Positions 9,001 through 49,004 of a stretch of DNA of 64,000 bases are shown in pieces. Each line of letters begins with the position of its first letter. The first letter of the stretch is position 1. The position numbers and the translations under genes are program-made. The DNA is taken from assembly GCF_000003815.2 (NCBI RefSeq), contig NC_049991.1:18002300-18066299 (forward strand). Direction: 5' to 3'. The notes under the pieces were generated by a model. It was not told the origin of the DNA. It made no database searches and saw only the letters and a program-made list of their open reading frames with translations. Source of the stretch: Branchiostoma floridae (Eukaryota > Chordata > Leptocardii > Amphioxiformes > Branchiostomatidae).

Positions 9001-11585
9001 TCACGCACCCCCACTTCACCAAGTTCGCTGTGCTGAACACACAGCGGGGGTACCGCCAAGGAGACGTTCTTACTGCAGTCATACAGGCGAGAGACGCCAG
9101 TGGAAGACCGAAGACGTACGGTGGAGACTTTTTCCGCGCGAAGCTTGTCAGTGTCCGGCCTAGAGAGGCCAGTAGCGCTGGGCACGTGACCGACCATGGG
9201 AACGGTACCTACACGGTGCAGTTCCCACTGTACTGGACAGGGGAGGCCAGGGTGAGTGTTCATCTAATAAGCTCTTTCATAGAGTTCACTACGCATGCGT
9301 AGGTGACAGGAATTATGGGTAATATGTCAAAGTTGAAAGCCCCATACGTAAACATTCCCCCATTTTGCAGGCGCCATTGCGTTCACGACATTGCCAAGCA
9401 AATAAAAAACAATGGTGTTTCTACTGTGCTTGTTGATTACAAATTTCACTATACGATAGTTCTTGGAAATAAGAATGGTGTAAAGTCCATAAAGCAGCTC
9501 ACGATGCTGCAAATATTTAAGCTCAAATGTCTGGAAATACCTTTTGATGTTTTTATGCCATTTCCCAGGTATCGGTGCAGCTCGTCCATCCAAGCGAAGC
9601 TGTGAAGGTTCTGCGGCGCGTGCGGGATGTTCCCGCCAAGAGATCCTTCACCTGCATGTTCATCGATGCCAAGAGCGGCGACAGGGAGAAGCGGCCGTGT
9701 TTTACCGCCCAACCTCCGGAACTGCCGCCTGAGCGACTCTGCGATTTCTCCAGACACGAAGCCAACGGGACTTGGTTCTGCGAGAAGCCCGAATCTCTGC
9801 CCTGTGATGCCATCGTCGCTTGTCGACGCGAGGTCAGCCTGAAGACCGACCAGCCGACAATTCTGGTGTCAGAGGATGAATGGAAACTCTTTCTCAGGTA
9901 GCAAAGTGCCCTACTTTTTATTTTCACTATCCTAATGAAACTTCATGACATTATTGTTAGGCTTTGGGTTATTTCAACTTGATAAGGATCTGAGGACTGA
10001 TCGAAAGCTTGTTGATAAGGGTTCTATTTTGTGCATGGATACAAGGTTTGAAATTGTAACATAACTATGGAAACCAAGGTTAATGAAGATTGAAGAATAG
10101 AGATGATATAAAAGGCATGGCCAAAGCTGTAGTGTTGATAAAAATTAGGTGTTAACAATAGTCAATACTGACACAAGTTGGCCATGAAAGTTGTAGAAAG
10201 TTCTCTCAAAGCTGATAGATACTGGGACGTCTAAGATTTGTCTTTTAGAAAACTTTTTTCCTGTCCTTACAGTCCGTATGTAGACACGGAGCTGGAACAA
10301 GACGACCCAGTTGTGATAAACGTGAAGGAATCGGAACAGCCCCTGACCGACCGTCTTCCCGAATGTTCTGGACAAGCACCCGACGCCATGACCAACGGCT
10401 ACTGGTCCGGCAACGGCTGGAACTCGACGGTCTGCAATGTGCGACAGTTTACCAGAACGGACATGCGCCGATGTGTTGCCAATAAGACGCTCTACCTACA
10501 AGGCGATTCCACCATCAGGAAATGGTTCCAATGGTTCGCCGGGAAGGAGCAGAGCAGGCATAAGGGAAGCCTGAAAGGAGGTGGGTCAGTCAGTTAGAAA
10601 AATAGACCATATGTGTTGTTTAAAACTGTACGACTGCTAGGCAACCTTGTAAACAAAGATCTCTGTATTCAAGGTATCCGTATCTTGCGTTGCCTGTATA
10701 ACCTAGTTCGAAAAGCAAACCTCATATATCGGTAGACATGATGCTGTTCTTGTATATTGTATTGTTGCCAGGGCTAGCCCCTGATAATAGTCTCCGGCTA
10801 GTTGGGTAGCCCTGGCTGTATTTCTGTCTATACAGCCGTATGAATAAAAGAAAATCAAACAAAACTGTTACCTAACACAAAAATAGTTAGTGGAAAACAA
10901 TCAAATCGGTCTTTGTCTTGGTTTATGGCCATTTTTATTTGCCCAAAATTGTCTTCGATTAAAATTTTGATACATTAGTATAAGTTAAAGTTTATCACAT
11001 TTCCTAGAGAGAATGATTGTGCGTCAATGAAGTATTTATTAGCTACCATTTATGTTTTTCGTTCCAGGCCCAGCAATCTTATCGGACAAAGATAGTAACA
11101 GCGTGGTGACCTACCGTGCTCACGGCCTGCCCGTACTGGGGTCGGAGTGGATGAACATCTCCAAAATCAGGTACATCGCGGACGAGCTGGACTCGATCAA
11201 AGGCGGTCCAGATACGCTCATAGTTCTGGGCCTGGGGGCACAGTTCACTACCGAGCCTATAGAGATGTTTCGGGCTCGGCTCTACGCCATACAGAACGCC
11301 ATACGCCGTCTTCTCCAGCGCAGTCCCGGCACGCGGGTGTTCGTGAGAACTGGAACGACGCGAGACCACAAAAGTCAGCGACTCTACCTTCGCGGAAGCG
11401 ACTGGCTGGCGTATCAGATCGTGCAAGAAATCAGACAGATCTTCGGGCCTGACAGGAACGCCGTGGTTCTGGACACGTGGGACATGAGCGTGTGCCAGTG
11501 GGAGGTGGAAAATCTTCACAACGGAACCGCTATGATGGATGCTCAGATGAACATGTTTCTGTCTCACATATGTCCTAAAGCCTAA
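6018..11585 (+). CDS. NXPE family protein, copy A (neurexophilin-like + PC-esterase), five coding exons
   Basis: Coding exons are 6018-6089, 8796-9251, 9569-9897, 10273-10580 and 11068-11585 (phases 0, 0, 2, 1), giving 560 aa. NXPE1-4 of vertebrates are about 540-560 aa. All introns have GT-AG ends. The first exon begins 2 nt after a TTTTGCAG acceptor, so a non-coding 5' exon is expected upstream. Residues 1-24 form an uncleaved signal anchor (RRL then a hydrophobic run), making it a type II Golgi/secretory protein. Exons 2-3 carry the neurexophilin-like Ig-type region (GDVLTAVIQARD, NGTYTV, cysteine-paired exon 3). Exons 4-5 carry the PC-esterase (SGNH-like) domain with G363-D364-S365-T. At the canonical C-terminal DxxH, this copy reads E536-N-L-H539. 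AATAAA lies at 11637. The family acts as, or is proposed to act as, glycan O-acyltransferases/esterases; the substrate here is unknown. Confidence 0.93.
6130..6322. repeat. Imperfect inverted repeat with about 70-bp arms in NXPE-A intron 1
   Basis: The left arm (about 6130-6201) and right arm (about 6250-6322) are reverse complements across CGACGAGTCTGCGAGCTC, TAAATTACGAGGAGGCATGA and, more loosely, CTCACATGTAGCGA. The loop is about 48 bp. It starts 40 bp after the splice donor of the signal-anchor exon. It could be a foldback element or a local inverted duplication. Confidence 0.85.
7014..7039 (+). repeat. Poly-G tract
   Basis: Fifteen G, one A, then ten G, inside NXPE-A intron 1. It could form G-quadruplexes and is a likely spot for length errors. 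A perfect CRE octamer TGACGTCA follows at 7145-7152. The rest of this 2.7-kb intron (6090-8795) shows no other coding signal. Confidence 0.9.
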
Positions 11586-11945
11586 CAAAATCTTTTTTCC
11601 CTAAACCCTACCCGAATCCTTTTTCTCTAAACCCTAAATAAATGTATAAATGTAATTTCTCTCAAAATATTTTCCTGGTAACAAATGGCACCTGCTACAA
11701 AAAAATTATGTCAAGAAAAAGAAATACAAAACAGCAAAATTGAACGTTCTGCTGGGCAACAGAACCGCTATGACGAATGTCCAGACGAATATGCTTTTGT
11801 CTTACATATGTCCAAAGTAGAAAACGTCCACAACGGAACATATGTCCTAAACCCTTACCAAAATATTTTTTCCTGCCATCAAATCCCATCTGCTACAAAA
11901 AATTGCCACATCATGCCCATAAAAAGAAATACAAAAAGCCATCTG
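11586..11945. repeat. Degenerate tandem copies of the 3' end of NXPE-A
   Basis: Segment 11664-11740 (3' flank, AAAATATTTTCCTGG...CTACAAAAAAATTATG...AAGAAATACAAAA) is repeated at about 11860-11940. Just before it, the last coding codons are echoed twice. Positions 11759-11818 resemble 11520-11581 (AACAGAACCGCTATGA ... CATATGTCC). Positions 11822-11855 resemble 11507-11525 fused to the stop region (GAAAACGTCCACAACGGAAC, then CATATGTCCTAAACCC). These echoes contain stops and are not exons of the main gene. A further trace is at about 12213-12246. Confidence 0.75.
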
Positions 11946-11964
11946 CTGCACAGCGGAATCGCTA

Positions 11965-12211
11965 AAGGCCCCCTCTCACTTGACGTGCGGCACGCTTGCG
12001 GCATTGCTGCGTTCGCAAGATGCTCAACGAATTTCAGAGATAAAGAACGAATTTTCTACTTGTTGTGTATTTTGTGGTCTTCTATGTCACACTTTTACGT
12101 ATTGCGCAATATCTGAATTATAACAAATCGGAGAAAATAACAAAACAGTACCGCAGTGAACGAACGCAGCAATGCCGCAAGCGTGCCGCACGTCAAGTGA
12201 GAGGGGGCCTT
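11965..12211. mobile_element. MITE family 2, copy 1
   Basis: Palindromic element of about 247 bp. Near-perfect terminal inverted repeats of about 50 bp run inward from AAGGCCCCCTCTCACTTGAC (left) and end with AAGTGAGAGGGGGCCTT (right). The interior has ACACTTTTACGTATTGCGCA. It lies inside the degenerate 3' echo of NXPE-A. The second copy sits in NXPE-C intron 3 (22110-22357). Ends and interior motifs resemble MITE family 1, suggesting a common transposase source. Confidence 0.9.
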
Positions 12212-12424
12212 AAGATGCCCATATGAATATGCTTTTGTATCACATTTGTCCCAAGTAGGCTATTATGTCAACCCGTAAGTTTCAACAAAGTTTCAACACG
12301 CAATGTTTCAACACCCCAAGAAATATTACAGAACCACTCCGCTATTAATGATGTAGGTATATTTGGGAGAAACCAGACTTATGAGTATGGTAGAAGAAAA
12401 GCGTATCCTGGAAAAAGAACTTTG

Positions 12425-12573
12425 CGACAGACCTGAGTCAGCTAACTGATGTACCCTATGTGACGGAGACTGTCATGTTCGTATAGAACTGTTTGCCACA
12501 GCCGACGCTGTAGGGCTGATATCAATTAGGATTTTACCATCATGGTCAATATTGACCGAAGGGGGTCATGTAT
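12425..12573. repeat. Dispersed 150-bp repeat, copy 1
   Basis: Shares CGACGCTGTAGGGCTGATAT, CAATTAG-ATTTTACCAT and AATATTGACCGAAGG with 27119-27272. Internal short inverted motifs (GGTCAATATTGACC) are present. No coding potential. Confidence 0.8.
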
Positions 12574-14823
12574 AAAAAATCAGGTTCAAATGACCAATTT
12601 TATGCAGAATTGCCGGCCGAATTTGCCGGAAGGTTATAACCCACCTTCTCTACTTGTCTTTAGTTATGTTCGAATTGTTTTTGTAATATGATCTCACAAT
12701 GATCATCTTAAATCTTTATTGGCAAACTCCCACAAAGGACATTAAAAGTGGAGGCATAGATAAGATAACGTAAAAGAAAGTTTATCAACGTAAAAAAGAT
12801 ATCTTTCACAGATAGTCTATGGTCAATAATCGGTGTCACAACGATGACTAGTTATGTTTATTTTAATCGACTTGTGGCAGAATAAGATAAAAAGATATGA
12901 CAATCTTAGAAGAATTTTAATCTTAGAAATGGCTCCAAAATTATAGGAGGATAAATGAAAGTGCTACGTATATATGGGTACTAAGAATGTGTACAAATTT
13001 GCTGCTGGTTTGCCTATTGGGTTATGGTTTAATATGGATTGTTCCTGGTCAGGCAACTAGATTATGATATCATAATTATAGTAAATAATTGGTTATGGTC
13101 GACCAGTCGGATTGTGGCTTGATATTGATACATGATTTTTGAAAATTCTCAATAAAGATTCCTGTTGAGAAATTCATGCCCCGAAGACGAGTTCTGAGAC
13201 CTTGCAGAAGGTCTTTGATTAGCGTTATTTATTCTCTAGCCAAATGAAATGTATTTTGCATGCCCCAAATCATAAGAATCTAGTTTTCCCTTGTCAAATT
13301 ATCCTCTTTCAAAGATTTTAGTGAATAGAAATACCCCTGCAGTTCTAGTATAAAAAAAATCGGATATCAAAACAAAAGCCATCTTTAAAAAAAAAGATCA
13401 AGAGAAAAATATGTCCAGGACAAACAATACAAACAAGCATAAATTCTGTTTCCGTACCAAGGAAAGCCAATCCCAAGACCCACACACATACCAGTCACAT
13501 TGCAGTCCATCCAGAACTTCTTACTTTATGCAACAAACATGTGAAAATTTGAAAACATACACACACAAATACACAGACACATCCACTCACGGGTTTAGTT
13601 ATACATTCTTTGTCATCGAGGTGATAAACCATTTGACCTGTCACAATATTCTTCGGGAGATTAAGATGTTAAACTGGTTTTTGCTCCAGGCCAAAAATGC
13701 CACCGAGGGTGAAAGGGCAAGGTTTAAAGTAGTCAGAGCGGTCGGTAATGAAAGAGTGTTAACTATCTGTATCTGTATAGCCGGTATAACCAACCTTCGG
13801 CGTAACACGCAAGTTTCGTAGGTGTGCCACCAGCTGGTTATATTACGCTGAGCGACGTACGCGTGTCACACCTAACCTTTGCACATTTGACTGCAAATGT
13901 GTAAAGCTATATCTAGTGAGGATGCCTCTACTGTACTTGATGGCGACGAGTTCCACTGTACGATTGCTTTTGGACAGTAAAAATATCTTATACAACACCT
14001 CTGTATGATGGACCTCTGAGGATATATAATGTTAATCTGACAAGTTCAATTTTCAAACTGAAGGCTCCAGTTTTATATCGGAAATTCCCGTCGTAAGCAC
14101 GTCATGTCATCACGTCACCACTTTATTTGATACGCACGGCTGCACCAGTTAATTTGTGCAGCACGTTGCTCCACAGGTTTCTCATGGCCAGGTTAATTAC
14201 TAGGTGACCTCTGATTATCTGTAAAGGTCGGGAAACAATGGGGCTGCTTAAGGAGTTAACAGTATGTTTAACCTTACAAAACCTGTTTAAAAACACACAA
14301 TTTACAATTTCAATTGGAACTCCATGCGTAATATATCATTTCAAATTATTGTATGGATGCATGAACTGAATATTATTCATTAGGATCCAGATTTCTCAAT
14401 GAAGACGTCTTCGATTAACCTCATATTTAGCCTTTTGCAGAAAATATACCTACTTTGAACATTTTATCACAGGACATGTTGTTAGCAACAGAAGCATACA
14501 CGTGTGTGGACAACGTTTTGTGCCAACTTTCATGACCATTCATGACACTAGAGCGTAAGGTATGGATACACTGGTTACCTTTAATCTCTGTTACGTTACC
14601 ATACTGTAATTTACATGTATCAATACAGCAGTGAGTTGTCACTATTATGTGCGTTTTGACTTTATGACTATGTTAAATATGCTGTTCAAAGGTTTCAGAA
14701 GGCAAATACGTGTATCTAATTATTCCAAGATGCTAACAGATGGTATGTATGTATATGTCTGATGTTAACGTAGCAGAACAATTTATATTCTTATGTAACC
14801 ACGTCTGTTGTTGACAGGTAGAG
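12574..14823. other. A-B intergenic region, no gene seen
   Basis: AT-rich sequence between NXPE-A and NXPE-B. It includes one copy of the GTATCTGTAT repeat at 13763-13818. The 136-codon frame at 13411-13821 overlaps that repeat and a CA-rich stretch and is not convincing. The 5' UTR exon of NXPE-B probably lies here but could not be placed. Confidence 0.55.
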
Positions 14824-17801
14824 ATGACCTACTCTCGAAGGCTGGGAGCGTTTGTAGTGCTCATCGCCTTCAACATTGTTGTGTTTCTAGCATTGGTAAG
14901 TTATTTCAAACGTTCGTGAGTGAATATGTAAAAATCTGCTGATAGCTCTTCTTGGTATTAATGATTTTAATAAGCGGACGGGTTTTTTAGTAGTCTGTTT
15001 CAAAATATATTTATTCATGATATTAAAAGATCTATAAAACACAAGTTTGCAATGTAGTCAAAGTATAGTTACAATATATTAAACATTATAAGATAGTCTG
15101 TGAATAAAACTGTGAATAAAATGTGTTTTTCCTCCTGTTCATACAGCATGTGACCTTCTACTCTTCGAGTCGAGCACATTTTCTGACACAAAAGCGAGGT
15201 CACTTAATTGGACGGGTTAATAGCCGCCTGGCCCTGGAGCGAGTTACACACACAAACAGCACCACGTTTGTAGTGCTCGGCAGAGAGCGGGAGTACCGCC
15301 AAGGGGACGTTCTTACTGCAGTCATACAGGCGAGAGACGCCGGTGGAAGACCGAAGACGTACGGAGGAGACTTTTTCCGCGCGAAGCTCGTCAGTGTCCG
15401 GCCCAGGGAGGCGAGTAGCGCTGGGCACGTGACCGACCATGGGAACGGTACCTACACGGTGCAGTTCCCACTGTACTTCGTAGGGGGCGTCAAGGTAAGT
15501 GTTAAGCAACCTCATTTCTAACTTCTTGAAACTGACGAATGGTAGTGACTATCGTTTGTTGATAACGGAGAGGTCTGTCAGCATATGATAACTAGAAAAC
15601 GCTATGGTGGATTGTTATGACATTTTATGTTTGGGTAGGACTTCATAGGTTCTTGAAATGATCGGATTATAAGCCCCATAGCGGCTTGTTATGGTACTGC
15701 AGCATAACGTCCGGTTTCATATTTTGTATCTTCCATGAATCTGTCATACTGTTGGGTCGGCTCAAAGGTCATTTTTGCTTGTCACTGATAATCATAAGCT
15801 GCTATAAATATTTAAAAAAAACTGTCCTGCACATACTGTGTATGTATACGGTCATACTATTTGAGTCTCGCATCTAATCAGCCGATATGCCCGATGTCAA
15901 ATGACATCACAATGACGTCACTTGGCTGTATCTATAATAAAAAGAAATGTCATTCATCGAAGGTGTCGATCGAACTCGTGCACCCTAGCGAGGCAGTGAA
16001 GATACTGCGGTGCATACGAGAGGTCCCTGCAAAGAGAGGGTACGAATGTATCTTCATAGACTTCCAGCGGGGCACCCGAGAGGAACGACCATGTTTCACC
16101 TCTCAACCTCCGGGACGGCCACCGCACCAACTGTGCGATCTGTCCAGAAAGGAGGCGAACGGGACTTGGTTCTGCGAGAGACCGGACTCTTTGCCGTGCT
16201 CTGCTATCGCAGCATGTCGTCGAAACGTGACCGAGAAGGGAAAGGGGTCATCGACAAGACTTGATGTAGCGTCAGAAGACGAAATGAAACTCTTTCGAAA
16301 GTAAGAAAAACTCTATTCATTCTGATTTCTGCTGCATGCATAAATCAACACTAAATATATGATATTGTTATTAGACGTTTTCACTAACGAAATAAAAAAA
16401 TGACAAGAAACTAGCTGCTAGCCTGGGTAAGATTTTTCGTTGTAACCGTTGACTCAATCGGTCCGTCGCTGGCAAGCGAAAGGATTGAGCCAGCGGTTAC
16501 AACGATGGTACCCATGCTAACTAGCTTCAACGCCGTTCAGAATAACAAAGTCAAATGACAGTTTTATGATTTCACAAAGTTATCTTGATGTAAGAAATAA
16601 GTTTATGCCTTTTAATAGACTTTTTTATCTTCTTACAGACCGTATGTAGAATCAGAGCCTCTGAAACAGGACAGCCCAAGACCCATAGATGTCAAGGAAT
16701 CAGTATCGCCCATCTTCCACAGTCTTCCCGCATGTTCTGGGAACTCACGCGAAGTTTTCGGTCATGGTTACTGGTCCGGCAACGTCTGGAAATCCTCAAT
16801 CTGTAGAGTTAGACAGTTTACAAGGACGGACGCGCGAAATTGTCTCGTCAATAGGACAATTTACATACAAGGGGATTCAACCATCAGACAGTGGTTCTTA
16901 TGGTTGGCGGCGGGACACAGCAAGGGAAGCCTCAAACCAGGTAAAGTAATATATATAACGTTACATATACACTCCAAAATTAAAAAAGAACATGATCCTA
17001 GTTTTCTGCCTTTGTTATGTTCCGGCGCACTAACGCGTGAGTTTTCAGCACAGTGACACAAAGTCGTTTTAATGTACTCAAAGTCTGTATCCCGCTCCAC
17101 GTCACAGGAGTTGATAGGCCTTTGTGTAGAAGGTCTCCCCCACCCTTCGCAACGAAATACTAACTGTAAACTCGGTATGCGGATGTTTTTTTCCTTGTGT
17201 CCAACAAATCTTAGCCGACAACATGTTATCTATGATCAAAAATGAGTTATTGTTTTAGGTCTCGCTCGTATGCTTTGTTGTTCCAGGCCCTGCAATTGCT
17301 GTCAACAAAGAACTGAACGTCGCTGTTCACTACCGTTCTCACGGCCTCCCCGTATTGGGATCGCAGTGGATGAACATCTCCCGAATCAGATACGTTGTAG
17401 ACGAGGTAGACTCCATCCATGGCGGCCCAAACACGGTCATAGTTCTGGGTCTATGGGCTCACTTTACGGCTGAACCTCTAGAGATGTTTCGGGCTCGACT
17501 CTACGCCATCCAGAACGCCATACGTCGTCTTCTCCAGCGCAGTCCCGGCACGCGGGTGTTCGTGAGGACTGGAACGACGCGAGAACACAAAGGCATGTCC
17601 TTCTACCTGCGCGGAAGCGACTGGCTGGCGTATCAGATCACACAAGAAATCAGAAAGATCTTCGGGCCTGATAGGAGCGTGGTTGTGTTGGACACGTGGG
17701 ACATGAGCGTGTGCCAGTGGGAAGCTGATGATGTTCACCCGGGACCTGCTATGGTAGACAGTCAGATGAACATGCTACTGTCTCATATATGCCCCGAGTA
17801 G
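14824..17801 (+). CDS. NXPE family protein, copy B, five coding exons
   Basis: Coding exons are 14824-14895, 15147-15494, 15963-16300, 16639-16940 and 17287-17801, with phases 0, 0, 2, 1 identical to copies A and C, giving 524 aa. Exon 1 encodes a 24-residue signal anchor (SRRLG then a hydrophobic run), placing the enzyme as a type II protein of the secretory pathway. The ATG follows a TTGTTGACAG acceptor by 7 nt, as in copy C. The neurexophilin-like region spans about residues 60-250. The PC-esterase domain carries G331-D332-S333-T and the canonical C-terminal D501-D-V-H504. The exon 3 acceptor (TCATCGAAG) has a poor pyrimidine tract compared with TTTCCCAG and AATTCCAG in the other copies. 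The rest of the model is intact, so B appears functional. Stop TAG. No AATAAA close behind. Confidence 0.93.
16416..16525. repeat. Hairpin in NXPE-B intron 3
   Basis: Arms 16438-16459 (CGTTGTAACCGTTGACTCAA...) and 16483-16504 (...GAGCCAGCGGTTACAACG) pair with few mismatches around a 23-nt loop. Pairing resumes weakly outside (TAGCCTGGGTA / TACCCATGCTA). It is probably a small foldback insertion. Confidence 0.8.
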
Positions 17802-19440
17802 GGAAATCTAATATCAAATATATATTAAGCAAGCACAATCAGACACTACGTTACCTCTCATAGCAAAGAGTTGATAAGTGATTTAAAAACACGAAGAAGA
17901 CTCGATGAATGTTCCATGTCCATGGTTTAGCCCTCTTCAGGTTTGGATGACCAATCCCTTAGAGCACGTGACCTCGCGTGACGTCAGGAATTGGTGAAGG
18001 TGCAGGGATGTTTTACCCACCCGGTACCCCCGTCTCTGTTTGGCAATGCCTGTGTTTTTGTTATACTCTGAAAAATCACTGTTTGATGGTGAATCATTAC
18101 GATATTCTTATTGTTTATGTTGACAGTTTGAGATTAAAGAAAACAGACTACTTGCTGCTTGGAAGCAGATGATATTTGTTTGATATATCGTTCAGCTCTA
18201 CAGAAGATTGTGAGGCCTATGACGTCGCATATAGGGTATGGCTTTTCGTAATAAGAAGACCGATAGTATGTTTTCCCAATCACCGAAGTCTTTTGACCGG
18301 AGCGCCACCGTCAGGGAAATCATACCGCCTAAATCGTTTTTGTTGTTGTTTTCGCCCACCTTCCATTAGGCTTTAAAATCCCACCTGATCTTCCTGACTA
18401 TCTCTAAACAAACTCATACACTTACTCCAAATGTTCTTCAAGCAATGACTGTTATAAAAGTAAGGTACATACCTACATATTTTCGGCGGCTAACAGTCCA
18501 TCTTGCTCAGGAGAGTGACCTAGTCTCGATCTCGCGAGAGAGCACGAGACTAGGTCAGGCTTGCGTAGATATACTATACAAGTATTGTGCACAGCTTTGG
18601 TATAGTCACAGTCAAACTCAAACTCATTTATTTATTTAGCCAGGTGACGGAGAATAACGGAGAGAGAGATGGAAAATTACGTCACGTATAACAACATACC
18701 CATCCATATGCCTTCCAAATCCTGACATACCAGGCAAGTTTTGATTGCAACAGCTTAACGTTACTCTCCGTACAGTCACGTATCGAAGCCTGTGGCGCTA
18801 GGTGGCGAAAGCTAGCTAACGCACACGGTCAACACGTGCCTTCGAGCCTGAGCCAAACAATATCAACATGCATATGAAGGGGGCACTGAGAACTTCTCTT
18901 TTCCTTAATTTATGTGTCTATCGCAGTTTTAATGAGATGTTCATCAGAGGAGAGGGTTTTGCGTTGAGAATCCCAGTTATTTACGATCATGGCTGCTGAT
19001 TACATATTCTGCCAAGGGAGGCTACAATAACCTTCTTGATTTCTGGTTGCCTAATAACCTTGCCCCAGTCACCTGATACGACCCTCCAAAATGGGGGGAT
19101 CTTTCGCAATCAGATGGCTTTTATTATTACATGTAAAATAGAACATTTTTTTAGTTCAGAGCTGCAGGTCCCACGTGAATAAAAGAGATGTACAATCATG
19201 TGTATTGTTTTACCTGCGTGACATAATCTCCCCCACTGTGACGGAAGGTAGGTCACCCTGTGTGAACAGCTTCACACTCCCAGTCACCCATGGAGTCAGG
19301 TGTTGGGCTGGGGTGTAACCTAATCTGTCTGTTACACACAAGAACGACTTGAAACGTCAACAGCTCCCTCCGCGACGTGTGTACTCCATGGACATTTTCA
19401 CGTTGATTTACCTGTACGCACGTAGAACAAGGCGGTGTAA
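17802..19440. other. B-C intergenic region, no gene seen
   Basis: No gene-like frame or recognised repeat. A short palindrome around CTAGTCTCG...CGAGACTAG sits at 18521-18553, and hydrophobic short frames are scattered. Confidence 0.55.
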
Positions 19441-19449
19441 TTCGGGCTC

Positions 19450-19497
19450 AGTCATTCGAAAGACATGCAGGCGTGGCCGGCTAAGGAAGAAAATGCG
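19450..19497 (+). other. Candidate non-coding 5' exon of NXPE-C
   Basis: A consensus donor (GCG|GTAAGT at 19498) follows a CTCAGTC initiator-like motif at 19447-19453. The NXPE-C ATG exon has a good acceptor (TTGTTGACAG at 20157-20166), so an upstream donor is required. This is the best candidate seen. There is no TATA box at the expected distance. Confidence 0.35.
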
Positions 19498-20168
19498 GTA
19501 AGTCGTCCTTTTTCTGTTTAGAGCAAACCCTAAATGTAGGTACACGATTGAAACAGTAAAAGACTAATCATGTACAAATACATCTGTTACAATTGTTTTA
19601 AGAGGAGGGAGGCATGTAAACGATAGATTTACTGGTACATAGCAAATCTGTAGTTGTTCTGTTGCTCCAATAATTAAATGACAGCACTACAAGTAGTGGT
19701 ATTCTACGTTTAGTGTCTAACGGCAACGTAATAGTATAAATACTGCATTTAGTCCATGTAAGCAAAACATGCATATAAAATTATTGTTGGAAATACTGTA
19801 TGTTAGTCATGGGGAACACTTGACTCTCTGACTGTTAGAAATTTAAAAAAAGAATAGCTTTGGTTGGGGTTAGGTTAAACATTGTTATATGTAAGAAAAT
19901 CCTTCGACAGACAGTGAAGCAAGATCCATTTCTGCGAAGCAATACAGCGCTCATCATGTTACCAACTTGTTCCCGATCCTTGATGCTAATCAACATAGGT
20001 GAACCAAATTTTAAAACAGGCATAATGTTCTTGTTCTCAATAATACTTTACTGCTTCTCGTATGTTTTAGATTCATTGTTTTGTCCTTGGCCCCTGGCTT
20101 TTTCGTGACCCTACATGACCTCTGGTTACCTCTCTGTTATTTGTCCTTTTATTTTTTTGTTGACAGTA

Positions 20169-23100
20169 ATGCGATCTTCTCGGATGGCGACGGTGTTGGG
20201 GACGCTCACTACTGTGATGCTTGTGTCCCTCATGGTAACGTTTTTATTGTTTCTATCAATGCTTGTCTAAGTGTTACTAATGTTGTTTCTTGACCAACAT
20301 GCGAAGAGTCTTTATCCTTGTCGCTTACTTAAAATCGTTGCCGTACTTCTGAAAGACAGCCCACTACTTAATACCTTCTGTCCTGTTTCTAAACAGAGCT
20401 AATAGCAGTCGGAATCTAATCTACGAACTCACATTCAATAGTTCAGGGTTTTACCATGAGTAAATAATCAGCATAGTCCTTTGTTTTAACCAAGAAGGTT
20501 GCAAACCTCCTTGCTTTGACACACATCTCTACGTTACGCCTCGCGTATTTATTAACCAAATATTCCGGGTAACCTTCGACAAGTATGTTGAGTTCTTTAA
20601 TGCTTCCTGTGGTATTTATCAGTAATATTTACTTTATTTCAATTCGTGCCATGCAGAGTTTGGAACTATTCTACTCTACCGATCAACTGGATCTTCCGCC
20701 GTCACACAGGTGGATTCACCTGTTTGAGCAGGTCACGCACCCCAACTACACCACGTTTGTGCTGAACAGAGAGCGGGAGTACCGCCAAGGAGACGTTCTT
20801 ACTGCAGTAATACAGGCGAGAGACGCCAGCGGAAGACCGAAGACGTACGGAGGAGACTTTTTCCGCGCGAAGGTCGTCAGTGTCCAGCCCAGAGAGGCGA
20901 GTAGCGCTGGGCACGTGACCGACCATGGGAACGGTACCTACACGGTGCAGTTCCCGCTGTACTGGACAGGGGGCGTGATGGTGAGTGCGCTTTCCATTGA
21001 CGTCATACTAATAATAATTTGAACCTCCCAATGTCCATATTGGCGGGTGATTGTTTTAACTTTATCAAAGACATCTTTGTGTGATTTTACCGGCGTACAC
21101 TGTAATCCAACAAGGCGCAGATGACGTTAAATAAATAGCATGTTTATAAGCTAGTTCACGATTTGGATTGCGCATGTGCAGCGTAATGTATTGTGGGTAA
21201 TAGGTCAAAGGCCATGGCCATTGGCATTCAACTTTGACCTATGACCCACAATGTATCACAATGCATGCGCACGTTAAACCATGCTTACTGTCGACTTTGC
21301 CGGGTCCTCTACAAAAACAATCTACATAAATTTTGACGGTTTAAGAAAAACGAATACCAAACATTTTCATTTACGTGTTTATGTGTTTAATTCCAGGTGT
21401 CGGTGCAACTTGTCCATCCAAGCGAAGCAGTGATGGTACTACAGCGTGTGAGAGAGATCCCGAATAAGAGGATCTTCTTCTGCTCATTCGTTGACGTTAA
21501 AGCGAACATCGTTGCAGTTCAGCGGTGTTTTAGTTCTAAGCCTACGAATCTACCCTCTAACCGACTGTGTGGTGTGACAAAACACGACACGAACTTCCAG
21601 TGGTTTTGTAAACGACCTGCCAGACTGCCTTGCTCTAGTATGTTAAAGTGCTGGTGGAAACAGAATGAGACATACGACCAGGTCACGACTCTCGTGTCTC
21701 CAACTGAAAGAAAACTCTTTGAAAGGTATCATTCTCGATTTTCCTCATTTGTCCAATGTCTTTTGCTACATCTAGGTATGGGGGTATAACTTTCCATTAA
21801 CTAGTTACATTCAAAAACTAGTTAACAAAAATGAATTAAACCTTTAGAATAATAAAGTTCCATCAAAAGGTTTGTCTTTACTCATAACTCATACTTTGTC
21901 TCCAAGATATTTCTGTTTTTTTTTTTCAAGATTTCGGTCTTTTCTTTTCTCAAAGTTTTGTATTTGCTATCTATTCACTGATATATATATGACATGACTA
22001 CGTGTCTGAATTGTATTCTTGTTCTTGTTTTGTTACTGGTTAACACCCCTTGTGTTTGTTAGGGCAATCCACCCAGGGCGCGGTACTGCTGTTTTATTGG
22101 CCGTTCCTTAAGGCCCCCTCTCACTTGACGTGCGGCACGCTTGCGGCATTGCTGCGTTCGGAAGATGCTCAACGAATTTCAGAGATAAAGAACGAATTTT
22201 CTTACTTGTTGTATATTTTGTCGTCTTTTATGTTATACTTTTACGTATTGCGCAATATCTGAATCATAAAAAATCGAAGAAAATAACAAAACAGTGACGC
22301 AGTGAACGAACGCAGCAATGCCGCAAGCGTGCCGCACGTCAAGTGAGAGGGGGCCTTTAGGTGTTGTAACACCTCTTCCTTGAACTTGACGGGGTCTGTA
22401 TTCTGACATACCACCTTCCTTCCAACAGTCCTTACTTAGAGGCAGAGCTGGAAGAAGACACCCCAATTGCAAGACAACCTATTCATGTCATGGTGCCGAG
22501 ACAGTCTGCTGCTAAACGTCTTCCCGAGTGTTCTAATAAGACCACGCCTGACGCCCCACACCAAGGGTACTGGTCCGGAAATGTCTGGAAGTCCTCAGTT
22601 TGTAGTGTCAGGATATTCAAGAAGCAGGAGATGTCGAGGTGCCTTGCCAAGAAAACGGTTTACCTTCACGGCGACTCCACCCTCCGACAGTGGTATCTTC
22701 GGCTGGTCAGGGTTATACCGACGCGCAGGCGTGGAAACGATCATGCAGGTCGGACTATGTTTCCTTTTTCTTTTGATTGACTGATCGATCAATTGATTCA
22801 TTGATTCTTTTTTCATCCAATCAGCAGTCGCATTAATCAATCAGTGGAATAATAAATCAAATGGCGTTTATTGATTATGAAATGCATCCCTATTGTACGG
22901 TTGTTTCGTACGTTAACAAGACATATTATGCAAACGGTTTCGTGATTTTCGTTCATACAAGCATTATACGACATATCCTCTCAAAATGCGGCTATCGGAA
23001 AACAGTTGTGTTGATTCTTAGTTTAAAACTGAATAGACCGTTTTCACACTTCCCATAATACATTGCGACAGGGTTCCGGATATGGATGTTGACTGGGATG

Positions 23101-24348
23101 TACCACCCTTGCCCAGGGTGCGAAACCAGGGTGAAACCAGCTAAAACCTTCAGTACGAGGGCGGCAAAGCATATAAACTTATGACTTGTCCGGGAAATAT
23201 AGTAAAACTATTATTAGGGCTGAGAATTTTCCAATTTTTGTGGTCAGAAGTATAAACTAGCAAGCCGGCACCACTGTGGCTGTTAGTTGGTTTCACCCGA
23301 TGACCTCATGGGTCACGACTTGCGTTTCGTCTCAGGCCTTTGTTCTTTGTTGTCAGAAAGTGATTTTTACCATGTCCCGTGCACTGTAACTATATTTGCT
23401 AGACAAATCATTAGTTTCATTAGTAATATATGCTTTGCCGCCCTCGTACTGAAGGTNNNNNNNNNNNNNNNNNNNNNNNNNNNNNNNNNNNNNNNNNNNN
23501 NNNNNNNNNNNNNNNNNNNNNNNNNNNNNNNNNNNNNNNNNNNNNNNNNNNNNNNNCCCTGGTTTCGCACCCTGGGCTGAGCTACAGAATATCCCAGTCA
23601 ACATCCATATCCGGAACCCTGTCTCAATGTATTATGGGAAGTGTGAAAAGGTCTATTGATTTTTTATCTTAATCATAGATTATCAATCTATATTTTACAA
23701 CATAACACACACGATGGTGGCTATCATCTGGAGGCTGTGATTGAGACTATTCTTACTCCCCCTATACATATACTATACATCCCCCTTCCGAGGGGCAAAC
23801 TAATAACAGAACTCTTTATCGTTACAGGCCCGGCAACAGCTGTGAACAACCGCTGGAACATCGCCATCCACTACCGCTTTCACGGATTTCCTATACAGGT
23901 CACGACAGTGCTGAATTTTCGGCAAATTCGTTATGTTGTTGACGAGCTCAACTCCATCCGTGGCGGCCCAAACACAACCATAGTTCTGGGTCTGTGGGCT
24001 CACTTTACGGCTGAACCTCTAGAGATGTTCCGGGCTCGAGTCTTCGCCATACAGAGCGCCATACGTCGTCTTCTCCAGCGCAGTCCCGGCACGCGGGTGT
24101 TCGTGAGAACTGGAACGACGCGAGAGCACAAACATTCCAAGTTAGAGTATTACCTGTTAGCAAGCGACTGGTTGGCATATCAAGTAACCCAGGAAATAAG
24201 GGAGATATTCAGGACAGAGAAGAACGTGGTTGTGTTGGACACGTGGGACATGAGCGTGTGTCAATGGGGACATGATAATGTTCACCCGGGACCCGCCATG
24301 GTAGACAGTCAACTCAACATGCTACTGTCTCATATATGCCCCAAGTAG
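20169..24348 (+). CDS. NXPE family protein, copy C, five coding exons
   Basis: Coding exons are 20169-20234, 20657-20980, 21397-21725, 22429-22748 and 23828-24348 (phases 0, 0, 2, 1), giving 519 aa, the shortest copy. Exon 1 has 22 codons against 24 in A and B, and the anchor is less hydrophobic (MRSSRMATVLGTLTTVMLVS). The juxtamembrane stem in exon 2 is also short. The PC-esterase domain has G321-D322-S323-T and D496-N-V-H499, so both catalytic motifs are canonical. The segment after GDST is arginine-rich (RVIPTRRRGNDHAG), unlike A and B. Intron 3 holds a family 2 MITE and intron 4 holds a 624-bp foldback element that contains an assembly gap; neither touches an exon. AATAAA lies near 24557. 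Substrate unknown; likely a Golgi glycan O-acyltransferase or esterase by family. Confidence 0.92.
21169..21272. repeat. Hairpin in NXPE-C intron 2, half-copy in NXPE-A intron 2
   Basis: Left arm 21169-21210 and right arm 21232-21272 pair through ATTGTGGGTAATAGGTCAAA and its complement TTTGACCTATGACCCACAAT. In the same intron of NXPE-A (about 9288-9345) a single arm persists (CGCATGCGTAGGTGA, TTATGGGTAATATGTCAAAG, TTGAAAGCC). This is the only non-exonic similarity seen between the introns of different copies. Confidence 0.75.
22110..22357. mobile_element. MITE family 2, copy 2, in NXPE-C intron 3
   Basis: Same orientation as, and over 90 percent identical by eye to, 11965-12211, with the same AAGGCCCCCTCTCACTTGAC / AAGTGAGAGGGGGCCTT termini. 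It ends 71 bp before exon 4 of NXPE-C. Target duplication unclear. Confidence 0.9.
23033..23656. mobile_element. Foldback element in NXPE-C intron 4
   Basis: Terminal inverted repeats start ATAGACCGTTTTCACACTTC at 23033 and end GAAGTGTGAAAAGGTCTAT at 23656. They pair over at least 150 bp, including GGTTCCGGATATGGATGTTG, CACCCTGG-type blocks and CCGCCCTCGTACTGAAGG. The centre (about 23210-23380) is unpaired and unrecognised. The 100-N gap lies in the right arm. Confidence 0.85.
23457..23556. other. Assembly gap (100 N)
   Basis: Fixed-length run of N inside the right arm of the foldback in NXPE-C intron 4. Comparison with the left arm suggests only about 14 bases are really missing. Confidence 0.95.
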
Positions 24349-24919
24349 CACAACTGTTTTAGCCACCAAATCAAGCTATCTGAGAGAGAGAGAAAAAACT
24401 CAGCATAAAGTTCTAAATTGCAGATTCTTTTAATGACATGGTTGTAAAATGCAACTTACCATATTAAAGGAGTTTATGTAAAATGCCAATGAAAAGAAAT
24501 TTATATAAAATGCTAATGATAAATTCAACTAATAGTTCTTTCAAATATTTGACTTGTAAATAAAAACATCATGACACTGACAACAAGCTTGCGTTAAATG
24601 CGAAACTTACACATATTCGATTAATATCTTCACACATCAGGTAGAGTGTTTGTGAACCGAGCAGTCCTTCATCTTACTTTATCGTTGTTTCCTAGTGTCC
24701 TATGAAAAACTTCCTCAGTCGAGATGAATTAGCCAAGCACCATGTTTCTTGGAGCTTACAAGAGTTTGTGCAAATCAAAGATTGTCCCTTCTAGAATTCA
24801 ACCAACTAAGGTCCGTTATGTTTAGTGCAGTATTTTGATTACACCGGACTAAGGTTCATTCTACTTTTCCAGGCGTCATTTTCCTTCATGATGTTCTGTT
24901 TAATATGTTCTGGTTTATT
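24349..24919. other. NXPE-C 3' flank
   Basis: AT-rich 3' UTR and flank of NXPE-C, with AATAAA at about 24557, converging on the 3' end of the minus-strand two-TM gene. No other feature seen. Confidence 0.6.
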
Positions 24920-26203
24920 TTACCTGTCTGCACAGTCTAGCCTGGAGTCCAGTCCTGTTCGCTGAGTAGCGACCTTGGGGAGCGGAACAAAGCGAACAGG
25001 ACTGGACTCCAGGCTAGCACAGTCTGCTTCGGAAGATGAAGAAGAACCGCTTCCTTCTGTTTCGTCAATAAAGCAGATGTCCTCAGCACTCACAGTACTC
25101 TCTGTGCTTTGGCTCGACGTGAGCGCCTCAACAATCAATGATCTTTGTGTCGTGTCGTCTTCTGTACTCGAATCAGAGTCATCATCTGTTGGTACTACTT
25201 CAACCTCTACAGGCGGTATGACAATGTTGTCAGTGAATGAATCACAGTCTTTATCCTCTATTGATGGAATTTCTATGGTAAGGACGTCCTCTTGGAGTTT
25301 TTCAGTCAGCAGCTCCTCTATGTTGACGTACGTTGCACCGTCGTCTTTAGAAGAGGCGCGCTGTTCTTGTATGGTTAAGATGATTTGCCGCGCCGCGCCG
25401 ACGACAATCATGAGAAAACAGAGGGAGACGAGGACCGGGCCGATGATGTTGAGCGGCACCAGGGGATGATCGTACAGCGTGAAGGCCAGGAGGGTCATGA
25501 GGATGCTGGGGATGAGGAGGACTGTACCGCAGATCAGCGGCCCCTGGCGACTGCACTGCAGCTTGCCGGCGTTGCCACACGTTTCAAGTTTCAAAGCGCG
25601 CCTCCTACGTTTGCGAAACGGGCTCCCCTCTCCTCCGTCGTCCTCCGAAGAACAGCCATTTGGGTAAGAGTCTCCGATCAAAACGTTCCGTTCTTCTTCC
25701 TCTCCATCTCCTTCTTGCAACCCTCTCACGTCTTCTTCTACAGTGCTACAAATTCCCTGTTGACTCTTTACTTCATTGTCCTCAGTAATATCCTCAATGA
25801 TCTTGCTCCTTTCATCCTGAAGACCCATTTGTGATTTCTCGCCACTTTTGCAGCCCGGACAGTGGACATGCCTTTCTTCAGAACCCCCGGCACGTCTACG
25901 ACAACAGCCCTTCTTAACTCTGCTTCTTTCTTGTAATTGTAAGTATTGCTGTATGTCTTGAGCGTTGTCGTCAAGACCGATTCTAATTCGACCCGTTCCT
26001 GTGTTATGTTTACCATGATGCCGACACGAAGGCTTGTGCTTGACGGACTTCTGCTGACGCTTGTTTCCCTTGGTCTTGTCTTTGCTGCGGGAACGGGAAC
26101 GTTTGCGACCGCTGTTCTTCGTCTTCCGCCGTCCGGTGTTCCGTTTCCGACGAGTCTTCGTCTTTGGTATGGCCTCGCGATGTCTGTAGCCAATCGGAGG
26201 CAT
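24920..26203 (-). CDS. Two-pass membrane protein with basic N-terminus and acidic Ser-rich tail
   Basis: A single open frame of 427 aa starts at ATG 26203, with an in-frame TGA upstream at about 26228. Residues 1-60 are Lys/Arg-rich (RKRSRSRSKDK). About 95-118 contain a cysteine cluster (KKGCCRRR...HCPGC). About 128-195 are acidic, followed by an FRKRRRRA block at 196-203. Two hydrophobic helices lie at about 221-244 and 251-277. The C-tail is acidic and Ser/Thr-rich, with repeated S-S-T-E type motifs. AATAAA begins immediately after the TAA stop, implying a very short 3' UTR. Residues 396-424 are encoded by a hairpin insertion; without it the protein would end at 398 aa. Family not recognised. 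Topology resembles the 1268-1711 ORF. Confidence 0.75.
   Translation of the reverse strand: MPPIGYRHREAIPKTKTRRKRNTGRRKTKNSGRKRSRSRSKDKTKGNKRQQKSVKHKPSCRHHGKHNTGTGRIRIGLDDNAQDIQQYLQLQERSRVKKGCCRRRAGGSEERHVHCPGCKSGEKSQMGLQDERSKIIEDITEDNEVKSQQGICSTVEEDVRGLQEGDGEEEERNVLIGDSYPNGCSSEDDGGEGSPFRKRRRRALKLETCGNAGKLQCSRQGPLICGTVLLIPSILMTLLAFTLYDHPLVPLNIIGPVLVSLCFLMIVVGAARQIILTIQEQRASSKDDGATYVNIEELLTEKLQEDVLTIEIPSIEDKDCDSFTDNIVIPPVEVEVVPTDDDSDSSTEDDTTQRSLIVEALTSSQSTESTVSAEDICFIDETEGSGSSSSSEADCASLESSPVRFVPLPKVATQRTGLDSRLDCADR
24931..25025. mobile_element. 87-bp hairpin MITE-like insertion inside a coding exon
   Basis: Perfect 27-bp arms at 24937-24963 and 24991-25017 (CTAGCCTGGAGTCCAGTCCT... and its complement) enclose a 27-nt loop. 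Direct 8-bp repeats CACAGTCT flank it at 24931-24938 and 25018-25025, the size typical of hAT elements. The insertion plus one copy of the duplication is 87 nt, so the frame of the two-TM gene is kept and 29 codons are added. Confidence 0.88.
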
Positions 26204-27069
26204 CTTCCGACGTAAACTTGCTGATCAATGAAGCTGAAGATTCTTCAGTTTCCTTCCTCAGACTCAAACAGGACAGATGGCCGCTCGACTGTCTAGTGTA
26301 ACACTCACAAAACATTCAGTGATAAAAAATAAAGACACCGGCCTTGAGGTTGACAGCATACACCGAGCGATGAGCGGCTGGGACACAAGACACGGTGCAA
26401 CGTAAAATGAACTTTTCCCCTGAAATCTTCATCGTAGTTCATGTGATTTACAATAAATATCTTGTAAATCTGTTTTAAAGAATTCAGCGACATCGACTCG
26501 TTATTCTTTGGTGAGATAGAATACAAAGGTTTGTCCTTGTGTGACTGCCTTTCGATGATTAAACGCGTTGGATTGGAAACCTTGCTTTGTCGGTTATGTC
26601 TGAAGACAGTCCCCCGCTCACAAGCCTACTGTCTATGACATTGTTTCTAAAGGTCATCTCTGTCCGTTAGTATTCTATAGCAATATATAATCTACCAATC
26701 CATCCTTCCATCTTTATCCACAATGCGTTGTTATGCTCGTGGCTGATAGGTTTATATGGATAGCTTACCTCAACGATGTGTCAAGTATAGTGAGTCCCAT
26801 ATGATTTTGACCTTTTGCGTGACAATTTATGAGTTATGTATTAATGAATAAGGCCACAATAAGTTGATGTTATGGATGACATCCCTTGGTTATTTAAAAT
26901 TTAACATGCTGCAAGAGAGGAAAAGGGAAGGCAAGCAAAAACATAATAATAAATGATGAAAACACACACACACCCCTAATTTCACTAACGCTTGTCAGGT
27001 GTCCCTGATATTGTTTCTGAGTACAAATTATCAAGACACTTCTTATGGTCACTTATTATGTAGATAATT
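26204..27069. other. Upstream flank of the two-TM gene, no further gene seen
   Basis: No convincing TATA box or 5' exon could be assigned. The frame at 26315-26010 (minus) is a shadow of the two-TM gene. Confidence 0.5.
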
Positions 27070-27313
27070 ATCAGCATTAAACACAAAGATCAAGAACCTT
27101 GTGTATAGTAAGGGCTCTGCAACAGACTTGAGTCAGTCTACAGATGTGTACAGTCCCATGTGGCAGAGACTGTCATTCTCGTATAGGACTGTTTAGCAAC
27201 AGTCGACGCTGTAGGGCTGATATCAATTAGTATTTTACCATGGCCAATATTGACCGAAGGAGGCCATATATGTATCAGCATTAAACACAAAGACCAAGAA
27301 TCTTGTGTATAGT
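27070..27313. repeat. Dispersed 150-bp repeat, copy 2, between 40-bp direct repeats
   Basis: Copy of the 12425-12573 repeat at 27119-27272. It lies between near-identical direct repeats at 27070-27109 and 27274-27313 (ATCAGCATTAAACACAAAGA...). This looks like a tandem duplication or an element with long direct ends. Positions 27314-28200 hold no gene. Confidence 0.8.
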
Positions 27314-28109
27314 GATCACCTGCCCACATAGCCATAGACCAGATTTCAATAACCTCCTGCATGTGCGGTTTGTCTTTTTGTATAGACCGGGGCGTGGAGT
27401 AGTGTATAACACAAAGACTGTCTCCGACTTATTGTTGAATAATGATCATATACAATGTATAGCCAATCTATCTATCCATATACATATTATGTACTATATC
27501 TATACATAAAACATCAACAGAATGTTTCACACAAAACAAAAAGCAAAGTTTAATATCATCGTCACATCCCATACTAAGTCATAAGATTCAATATAATACA
27601 TACAAATATTATGTTTCATATAGTTTCGATGGATATTTCCACACGAATAAATACGCAACAAATTAAATCGTCACTATAAGCTTTTAAAAACATAAGATAT
27701 GCCCTACAGCGTCTCATTGCTAGGGGGCAGTGTTGTCTCTAATTCTAACACACAACTTAGGCCTTAAGATATTCATTAGAGCTTCAATCTTAGAATACTG
27801 CTCTAGCTACAAGAATTGAACGTTAGTAATCAATTCTTTGAGTTCCTAAATGACAGTAACGGCCGACAATACTGTAAAATGGCAATGCCATTATGTTATG
27901 GCGTAAGAAAGTCAAATAAGAATCCCTCTCACGAACAGTCTTTGATTAAAAACTCCTATTTATATCAAACATATCGTGGGTACTGCTAGCTACTTCTGAA
28001 GAATAATGTAGCTAACCTATGGTAAATGTACATCATAGTTAAAGCCGTGAATGCGTAGTCTGCTTCCGTGTGTGCGTTTTCACGCTTTTGGCCTCTTACT
28101 CGATGGAGA

Positions 28110-28681
28110 AGGAAGAAAATGCACGACTTAAGCTCTGTTCTAAAGCCTAACTTAGATTATTTGAACCAATCAGATACTTTGCCGTTGACCAGATATCTGT
28201 TTTATTCTGTTCGTCTGGCTGCCTGTCTGATTTTTTTTCGTGAAAACATTTGCCTACCGCTTATGACAGAATTTGACAATAAGAAAATTTCACTTTTTGA
28301 TGTTGGCCCAGTCTATCGTATCTGTTTGTTTCATCGTCTGTCTCTCTATATTTTTTTTCTGTCTGCAATGGTTATCTTTTCTTGAAAATATTCGCCTACC
28401 GCATCTAAAGCTTCTGAAGTTCTGACAATAAAAGAAATTACACTGTCTGAGGTTGGCCCAGTCTTTCCTATCTGTTTGTTTCACTGTCTGTCATGCTTTT
28501 CTTCTCTGTCATGTTTTTTCTTTTCTTGTAAATATTCGCCTACCGCATATAACACTTCTATAGGAAAATTACACTGTTTACTGTTGGCCCAGTCTTATCC
28601 TTGTTTCGCCGTCTGTTTCTCTGTGATGTTTTTCCTCTCATGTTCTTTTCGTCTGTCATGTTGTTTTTTCTCTTGACAACG
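28110..28681. repeat. Tandem array copied from the 3' end of the 108-aa gene
   Basis: Units of 142-147 bp carry GCCTACCGC at 28252, 28394 and 28538. The fourth occurrence, 28685, is the true stop-codon region of the gene at 28682-30728. Units also share TTGGCCCAGTCT, TCTGTTTGTTTCA and TTTTCTTG blocks. In the copies the stop codon is replaced (minus-strand GGCGAA or GGCAAA instead of GGCTAA). Confidence 0.85.
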
Positions 28682-30728
28682 TTAGCCTACCGCGGACGCC
28701 AGGACAGTTTCTATTCCCCGCTCGACGCCCTCGAGGTACTCTAGCATGGGCCTGTTGGTCTTGTGCTGGTAGTAGCGCGTGCGGAAGTGCTTGTCGTTGA
28801 TGGTCCTCCGCACGTCGTCCCGCACGCAGTCGGGCAGGTAGTACAGCACACGGCCCATGTCGGTCCCTAGCAGGATGCCCGCCTCCGTGTAGGTCCCGTC
28901 CTGAACCTCCTTGTACGTCTTCTCCATCTTCTCCGTCAGCAGGCTGTACATGAACTCGTACATCGCCACGTAGTCCTTGTGGGCCATCGCACCTGTTTGG
29001 GAGGGAGGGGGATAAGTCAGAGGGTGAACGAAAGAGCGAGTAGTACAAGGAAAAAGTAAGTCGAATTGTTTTCTGTCAATTACTGTACATGAACCAGAAT
29101 ATCACAACGTAGTCTTCCATTTGCTCTAATTATTGATAAGCATTTCGTTCTTAAGCAACGGATTTCTAAATAATCTTTTGATGAAAGTTGGAAAGAACGC
29201 CCACTGTATGACGTCATGTATTGACGTGTACCTTCCTCCTTCTTTGTGTAATTTTCTTTTCCCATACTTTCGGCGTAATGTTGTTTTTTCCACACATTCC
29301 CTTCTTCCTTACATTAAGTTACAATCCATCTTGAATCGCCCCTTGGGCTTTGCCAGCCTTCGTGCATCCCAAGTAAACACGGCTGTGCCGTTTCCGGCGC
29401 CTTTCACTTAAGTTCTGTGTTCTTTATGGCTCACACAAACACCGCGTAGCTGCCCGGGTAACCTTTACTCTCCTCACATCGTTTCTCACAGGCTGCGGGG
29501 CTCGCGTGTCTAAACAGTGCGCCCTGCCATCGTACATCAACCGTGCGAATTTCTGAAGACATTCGTAATACCCCAGTTCCACTAGACGGCGATCGCGCTG
29601 CGTTCTCACTGCGACATATATAGGATATGTGTAACCTTCACTTTCATATTGGGTGTATCACACAAAACGTAAAGGTGTGACTGAGAAGACAAAAAAAAAC
29701 ACGAAGTGTGAAAAGATTCGTTTTTTTTCTATACAATTCGTTGAGCGATCTGTCAATTTATAGGTCGCAGAGAGAGCGCAGTGAGAGCGCCGTCGTAGTT
29801 GGAAGGGGGTATTAAGCTAGAGAAATATATCCAACCCCGACGTGGAAAACAAATTACTTTCGGAAGCTAGAGAATTACATTCGTAAGCTATAGAAATATA
29901 TCCATCCCTGACTTTGAAAACAAATTGCATTCGTAAGCTAGAGAATTACATCTAGTAAGCAAGAAAAATATTTCCATCCCTGACTTGGAATACAAATTAA
30001 GTTCGGAAGCTAGAGAATTACATTAGTAAGCAAGAGAAATATAGTCATCCTTCACTTGGAAAACAACAACGCGAAAGAACGAAAATGGTGGAGTTATTCC
30101 CAAAAGTTGTGATTAAAAACATCTGGTGTAAGAGAATTTCTCTTCAATATGTATCATAAAGCAGTGAAGAACTAAATTTTCGAAAAGTTATGATTGTTGA
30201 CGAAAGATAATATAACATACATCCTACACTAGGTTCAAACTTCACATCATGATACATAGCATGTCACTTCTGAACAAACAACATGTGGCATGCCTTTCTA
30301 CATCAACTATGCATTTTCCAGTCATACATAAGGAGAACTAAGCTACAGTGAATTAAAAAAAAAAAAAATTTTAAGATTTTTTTTTCACATTATACCAAAT
30401 CACATGTGCACAATGATATAATTTAGCATGATACTTCGCATCAGGCTCATTAATATAAAGCAACATCATGTTTCTATTGAATTCATATATGCAATTTTTT
30501 TTCAACAATTACAAAACACACATATGAAAAACGCACTTATATGCATTATATATCAACATAGCACCACATATATTGCTGATTCCATCCACTCTTTTACTTA
30601 AGACAATCATATTTCAAAAGCAGTTGACGGAATTATATTGTAACAACAAAATAAAAAGAGAAAGAGAAAAATAAAAATAAAAATAAAAGTTGTGTGTGTG
30701 TGGCATGCTTACCCAGCGCATAATCCAT
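28682..30728 (-). CDS. Two-exon gene, 108-aa protein, family not recognised
   Basis: Exon 1 coding part is 30728-30713 (ATGGATTATGCGCTGG, then donor GTAAGC). Exon 2 is 28992-28682 after a CCCAAACAG acceptor. The junction is phase 1 and joins cleanly to give 108 aa ending in TAA. The protein begins MDYALGAMAHKDYVAMYEF and is mostly helical in appearance, with heptad-like spacing in the first half. It has one cysteine (near residue 63), no signal peptide and no TM segment, so it is probably cytosolic. Codon bias is GC-rich at third positions, unlike the surrounding AT-rich DNA, supporting a real exon. A further 5' UTR exon boundary (TTTGTCTGCAG) precedes exon 1 at about 30756. I do not recognise the family. 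Confidence 0.78.
29568..29814 (-). mobile_element. MITE family 1, copy 2, in the intron of the 108-aa gene
   Basis: Reverse-oriented copy. It starts TACCCCAGTTCCACTAGACG and ends GGAAGGGGGTA. Internal AAAAGATTCGTTT, ACAATTCGTTGAGCGATCTG and GGATATGTGTAACCTTCACT match the other copies in reverse complement. Confidence 0.85.
29815..30065. repeat. Tandem repeat, unit about 72 bp, 3.4 copies
   Basis: Units carry TAAGC(T/A)AGAGAAATAT, CCATCCCTGACTTGGAA and GGAAGCTAGAGAATTACAT at 29815, 29886, 29957 and 30029. The array directly abuts the MITE at 29568-29814. The rest of the intron (30066-30712) is AT-rich without other features. Confidence 0.85.
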
Positions 30729-47855: not shown

Positions 47856-48034
47856 ATCTTATTTTGATATTTTCTTTATTCTGATGTCTTTTATATGATA
47901 CTTTTCGCTCCCGAAAGCTGCCCGGTTTGGAAATGTGACCTAAGCCAAAGCAAGCAGCCTAAAGTACTGTTTCATTATATTAGAATAATTGTTGGATATT
48001 TGCAATAGTTTACAGTTCAACTCCCATGTATATA

Positions 48035-48914: not shown

Positions 48915-49004
48915 TACAGATTGCCATACATTGTACCTGTCACAATTGTCGCGCAATAAATTTCCATGGAAAGTTCTATGTAGTAAAGCCGTCAGAAAAC
49001 TCAC

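Follow-up and report, generated by a model that had tools for sequence, protein, structure and literature searches.

The window, i.e. the whole stretch of DNA analysed (64,000 nucleotides, C13:18002300-18066299), carries on its plus strand at least three NXPE-like genes in tandem, all sharing one exon order (8760-24348); the array ends tail-to-tail with the host gene described here. The last exon of one of these genes corresponds to Pfam NXPE4_C (E 5.7e-56), and the other genes share its peptides. The features of the host gene and of the insertion are as follows.

24920..26203, minus strand: host open reading frame, ATG to TAA, 427 aa predicted, with two hydrophobic stretches and an acidic Ser/Thr-rich tail, of no named family
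24938..25016, minus strand: 79-bp miniature inverted-repeat element (MITE), one arm of 26 nt, the other arm being the full 53 nt as in longer family members
24930..24937, no strand: left target-site duplication GCACAGTC, with a 9-nt identity GCACAGTCT when the first T of the element is counted
25017..25024, no strand: right target-site duplication GCACAGTC
24914..24919, minus strand: AATAAA directly behind the TAA, followed by ATTAAA at 24899-24904
24918..24926, minus strand: possible 5' splice donor CAG/GTAAAA, overlapping the stop; the exon would end at 24924

The open frame of the host occupies 24920-26224 of the minus strand (434 codons), with the ATG at 26203, and is longer than any run in 20 simulated 64-kb sequences, whose maxima ranged from 128 to 236 codons. 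The codon bias, with 1293 codons from the neighbouring NXPE exons as training set, was weak in four segments of the host (0.16, 0.07, 0.34 and -0.02 bits per codon), and frame 0 was the best of the six frames in every segment. Hydrophobic windows of 19 residues begin at residues 220-228 and 246-261 of the protein, suggesting two membrane spans, and residues 301-394 include 27 acidic, 3 basic and 27 Ser/Thr residues. Searches of the protein against Pfam and NCBIfam gave nothing above the cut-off (ICE2, TMEM100 and LrgA appeared below threshold only), and there were 0 matches to PDB sequences. Since no recognised family was found, the host is considered a gene from the length of its open frame and the weak codon bias only. 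In a protein search of its own genome (10 of 10 candidates scored) the host gene was found once, with no paralogue or second copy; the other two of the three matches were tails of the element (E 0.04 and 0.09). Kinship with another open reading frame with hydrophobic stretches, at 1268-1738, was rejected (best E 1.0).

A hairpin with perfect inverted arms of 27 bp had been described at this place in the initial annotation. The repeat finder located arms at 24937-24963 and 24991-25017 (27 nt, 100% complementary, spacer of 27 nt), and the complementarity thus stands over its full length, but the outermost pair, C24937/G25017, is part of the flanking repeats and lies outside the element, whose own perfect arms measure 26 nt (26/26). 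The ends are TAGCCTGGAGTCCAG...CTGGACTCCAGGCTA, i.e. TAGCC...GGCTA. A direct identity of 9 nt, GCACAGTCT, occurs at 24930 and 25017 with a spacing of 87; the element is symmetric if this is split with 8-bp repeats, GCACAGTC, perfect in 8/8 positions, around 79 bp. The 8-bp direct repeat annotated on each side, CACAGTCT, is the identical repeat shifted by 1, and the annotated total gain of 87 nt corresponds to the 79-bp element plus the 8-bp duplication. Recurrence of 8-mers at a distance of 87 was found at 3 of 63,691 positions of the window, two of them being the 9-nt identity itself. A search of the window for the 25-nt arm, allowing up to 3 mismatches, returned nothing but the two arms of the element itself (0.00 expected). 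A chance palindrome is ruled out by the arm search and by the 8-mer spacing counts. The element is 79 bp long, has terminal inverted repeats and contains no transposase gene; together with the flanking repeats and the multi-copy family described below, this bears out the annotation as an insertion of MITE type that duplicated its target. The annotated hairpin is real, was correctly located and represents the insertion of a transposon.

The genome searched comprised 513,431,437 bases in 431 contigs. Other copies, whose absence had been named in the initial annotation as a point that would speak against the insertion, do exist: the 15-bp end has 378 exact copies genome-wide (0 for the reversed control), and a DNA search, with 40 of 165 candidates scored, gave at least 59 matches. 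Among the matches listed, the whole 161-bp query was matched by the focal site only. Forty loci were examined (L001-L040, the first being the focal one), and 30 with both ends, each with up to 4 mismatches, were kept; the ten dropped were L004, L007, L008, L018, L022, L023, L026, L030, L036 and L040. Where a locus had several end pairs, the outermost pair was taken. Exact duplications of 9 bp flanked 12 of the 30 copies and of 8 bp four (including the focal copy), with none of 7, 10 or 11 bp; with one mismatch, 9 bp was found at five more and 8 bp at two more, and seven had no duplication. Duplications of 8 or 9 bp with at most one mismatch are therefore present at 23/30 loci, 22 of them besides the focal one. 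In a control with flanks paired across different loci, exact agreement was 0/870 for either length (8 or 9 bp); with one mismatch allowed, it was 1/870 for 8 bp and 0 for 9 bp. Ten further copies, outside the 30, were picked for an exact 15-mer match at both ends; five showed 9 bp with one mismatch, one showed 9 bp with two, three showed no duplication and one showed an exact 8-bp duplication in a T-rich stretch, while exact 9-bp duplications numbered 0. An eleventh stretch, L046, was excluded, as its two ends face the wrong way. The duplication length of the family is mainly 9 bp, less cleanly so in the ten further copies.

Two of the loci, L016 and L017 (C17:11615872 and C17:11271711), lie 344 kb apart and hold 108-bp copies that are almost the same but oppositely oriented, which suggests an inverted segmental duplication on their contig; they are not independent, because they are near-identical reverse copies of each other.

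Longer members of the family have two arms of about 50-53 nt. As the focal element retains 26 nt of one arm and the full 53 nt of the other, it is read as a palindrome that has lost part of its interior. The 25-nt inner core is found without a mismatch at four genomic places, its own among them, and the closest relative among the matches listed, at C17:14197093, has 98% identity over 58 bp. The identical arms and this close copy would suit a recent insertion, although 26 + 8 sites set a loose bound. The open frame around the focal copy has 434 codons; for the other 29 copies the surrounding stop-free run, within the stretches examined, measures 0-197 codons. In the relative at C17:14197093 (L004, from 1501) the outer part of the right arm is missing and yet, by eye, GTCCTATTG stands on both sides, as though an internal end had served the transposase. 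At another locus (L044, 209-647; C3:21451308) lies a 439-bp element that shares the outer end but differs inside and is flanked by a 9-bp duplication with one mismatch; it may be a bridge to an autonomous element. Exact end patterns gave 0 matches in the viral and prokaryotic collections. An earlier paper on an amphioxus MITE reportedly exists; a literature search for LanceleTn found no match, and a search with the end sequence returned no lead, the titles listed being on ATF4, FGF21 and fatty liver.

The element had been annotated as hAT-sized. The focal copy alone, small and with a duplication that reads as 8 bp (or a shifted 9 bp), resembles hAT elements, but its 8-bp repeat as a rule for the family was overturned by the genome copies. 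hAT membership is not supported, because the family duplications are mainly 9 bp (exact in 12/30 versus 4/30 for 8 bp); hAT elements seldom make 9-bp duplications, which are usual among Mutator-like ones. The ends differ as well, beginning with TAGCC and not with YARNG, the hAT-like end consensus. The genome has 33 places with hAT domains, and among 100 of the 378 ends, all on contigs C1-C5, none was seen by eye beside the 5 hAT places located there. The mainly 9-bp duplications and the inverted ends of about 50 nt recall miniature Mutator-like elements (MULEs), and a Mutator-like origin appears likelier than hAT, as a lead and not as an assignment of membership. In PMC13359793, an element with 9-bp duplications and long terminal inverted repeats is called most probably a MULE. 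No paired ends were found around the MULE-domain loci (27 of 27 listed; 20 with flanks of about 1.5 kb and 7 with up to 5 kb); one-end near-matches with 2 mismatches and no partner end in the stretches examined, beside a MULE locus (L057/L086) and beside a Merlin locus (L087), were read as chance. At L077, two matches in the same direction with 3 mismatches resemble a repeat within coding sequence. According to PMC8101967, Merlin elements make 8- or 9-bp duplications, as the family of the focal element does, and their ends carry a conserved terminal GG. Merlin was rejected, the ends here being TAGCC without terminal GG, and around the three Merlin-domain places of the genome no paired ends were found within about 1.5 kb.

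In the host frame, 79 + 8 (or 78 + 9) gives 87, which is divisible by three. The insert constitutes residues 395-423 or, equivalently, 396-424 of the 427-aa protein, the numbering being ambiguous because of the target duplication; the 29 new codons of the initial annotation, placed at 396-424, are borne out, and 395-423 is equally valid. With the insert the protein ends EADC-ASLESSPVRFVPLPKVATQRTGLDSRL-DCADR. Deletion of the 87 nt leaves ...SSSSSEADCADR* in the same frame, so that the short C-terminus is restored as had been annotated. The distance from the element to the TAA is 15 nt, and the last residues, DCADR, stay terminal because the duplication re-creates them; as the native end is kept, the change is an internal addition near the C-terminus. 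That neither frame nor stop is shifted is true here, but it had been overstated as notable. In simulated insertions of the element with an 8-bp duplication, made in either orientation at each of 1177 positions along the host frame, the frame stayed open in 599/1177 placements in the observed orientation and in 0/1177 in the other (599/2354 overall). The frame is kept by arithmetic, 87 being divisible by three, and no adaptation is needed; the stop-free, in-frame outcome is unremarkable. The term "exonised" appears to be the wrong one, as the element fell into an existing uninterrupted open frame, and no new splice site is required for the same reason.

The reading preferred here, with a probability of about 0.83, is that a transposed palindromic MITE of about 80 bp lengthens the host reading frame in place by 29 residues. 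A non-autonomous palindromic DNA transposon of this size, with hundreds of end copies and presumably moved by a cut-and-paste transposase, would have landed in the 3'-most known coding exon of a gene for a putative membrane protein with two spans, 15 nt upstream of its stop. A staggered cut would have duplicated the target over 8 bp, or over 9 bp with the terminal T of the element lost or shared. Since the element with its duplication measures 87 nt and has no stop in this orientation and phase, translation should read through it. Provided that the host is expressed and the long protein is made, translation through the hairpin would give a protein longer by 29 residues, placed immediately ahead of the unaltered terminal ones. 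The addition, falling in an acidic, Ser/Thr-rich tail, would probably be tolerated, and the insertion may be young and near-neutral.

An alternative accepts the insertion as real but takes CAG/GTAAAA as a functional donor, with the gene or its 3' UTR continuing downstream on the minus strand. By sequence the site is a fair donor candidate, resembling by eye the donors of the neighbouring NXPE exons (e.g. CAG/GTAAAG); with a matrix from nine of these donors, 41 of the 8068 GT sites of the window scored as high. With another donor matrix it scored above 4/9 NXPE donors, although 166/8068 GT sites scored as high or higher. A 3' UTR terminating near AATAAA would be very short, and an acceptor-like site lies at 24380 on the minus strand, where the joined frame, AG/A TAG, would again end in Arg followed by a stop; this acceptor, however, is a CT-rich simple repeat. 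The TAA at 24920-24922 is directly followed by AATAAA (24914-24919), to which the initial annotation had also pointed, and then by ATTAAA, and the downstream space is filled by the convergent plus-strand NXPE gene, which has an AATAAA of its own at 24559. Continuation beyond the stop is judged unlikely; the donor may leave the exact 3' structure ambiguous, and the insertion itself is untouched by it.

Other rival readings concern the palindrome itself. The sense-strand RNA folds into a long stem (-64.7 kcal/mol, z -11.6, with 0/200 shuffles as good), and palindromic MITEs can seed small-RNA hairpins, so that the main effect of the insert in a transcript might lie at the RNA level, with Drosha/Dicer cutting or ADAR editing lowering or altering the expression of the host. 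Ribosomes, however, normally unwind such stems, and Rfam gave 0 matches at E up to 1 over 20000-30000, by which a known structured RNA was also rejected; an effect mainly at this level is judged very improbable. In a further proposal, rated as quite improbable, the insertion segregates and gives two protein forms in one population, with and without the 29 residues, and a 26-bp hairpin close upstream of the stop in the message of the long form tunes RNA processing or translation termination. A local origin of the palindrome by fold-back or template-switch duplication, with no transposition, would fit its perfection and the four places only at which its inner core is found. Against this stand the 22 other loci with matching ends and duplications of 8 or 9 bp (up to one mismatch) and the 378 exact ends genome-wide, which leave such an origin a next to negligible probability.

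Taken as an insertion of a MITE into an open frame, the locus is a clean example of a tiny non-coding transposon which, its length and duplication together being a multiple of three, can lengthen a protein without breaking it. Pieces of transposons in coding exons are well known, and this kind of event is no new class of phenomenon. The signal of the family is corrected here from 8-bp to mainly 9-bp duplications, and the insertion, if polymorphic, would make it possible to test directly whether additions of this kind to a protein tail are neutral. In Branchiostoma, the genus also of the likely host here, the last exon of the opsin gene Bl_op16 is described in PMC5802833 as longer than in its orthologues in two other species, owing to palindromic repeats at its end. 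That case concerns another gene and compared orthologues, whereas the focal host is described here from one genome, and the portion of that article available names no target duplication or family for the repeat. A wheat gene (PMC6824096) likewise has a miniature transposon-like sequence within a coding exon, its exon 6, but that sequence differs in its length of 307 bp, its plant host and its family.

Further palindromic elements are present in the window. A large inverted-repeat element at 23041-23649, in an NXPE intron, contains about 100 consecutive N, which probably mark a break of the assembly within the palindrome. Another palindromic element, with arms of 54-55 nt (98% complementary), is present twice, at 11962-12214 and 22106-22361; the two copies are flanked by TAA/TTA, i.e. 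3-bp repeats, and we take them to be Harbinger-like. At 48033-48916, arms of 180 nt are 100% complementary and enclose a nested palindrome at 48277-48557 (90%), so that the whole looks like a recent nested fold-back element.
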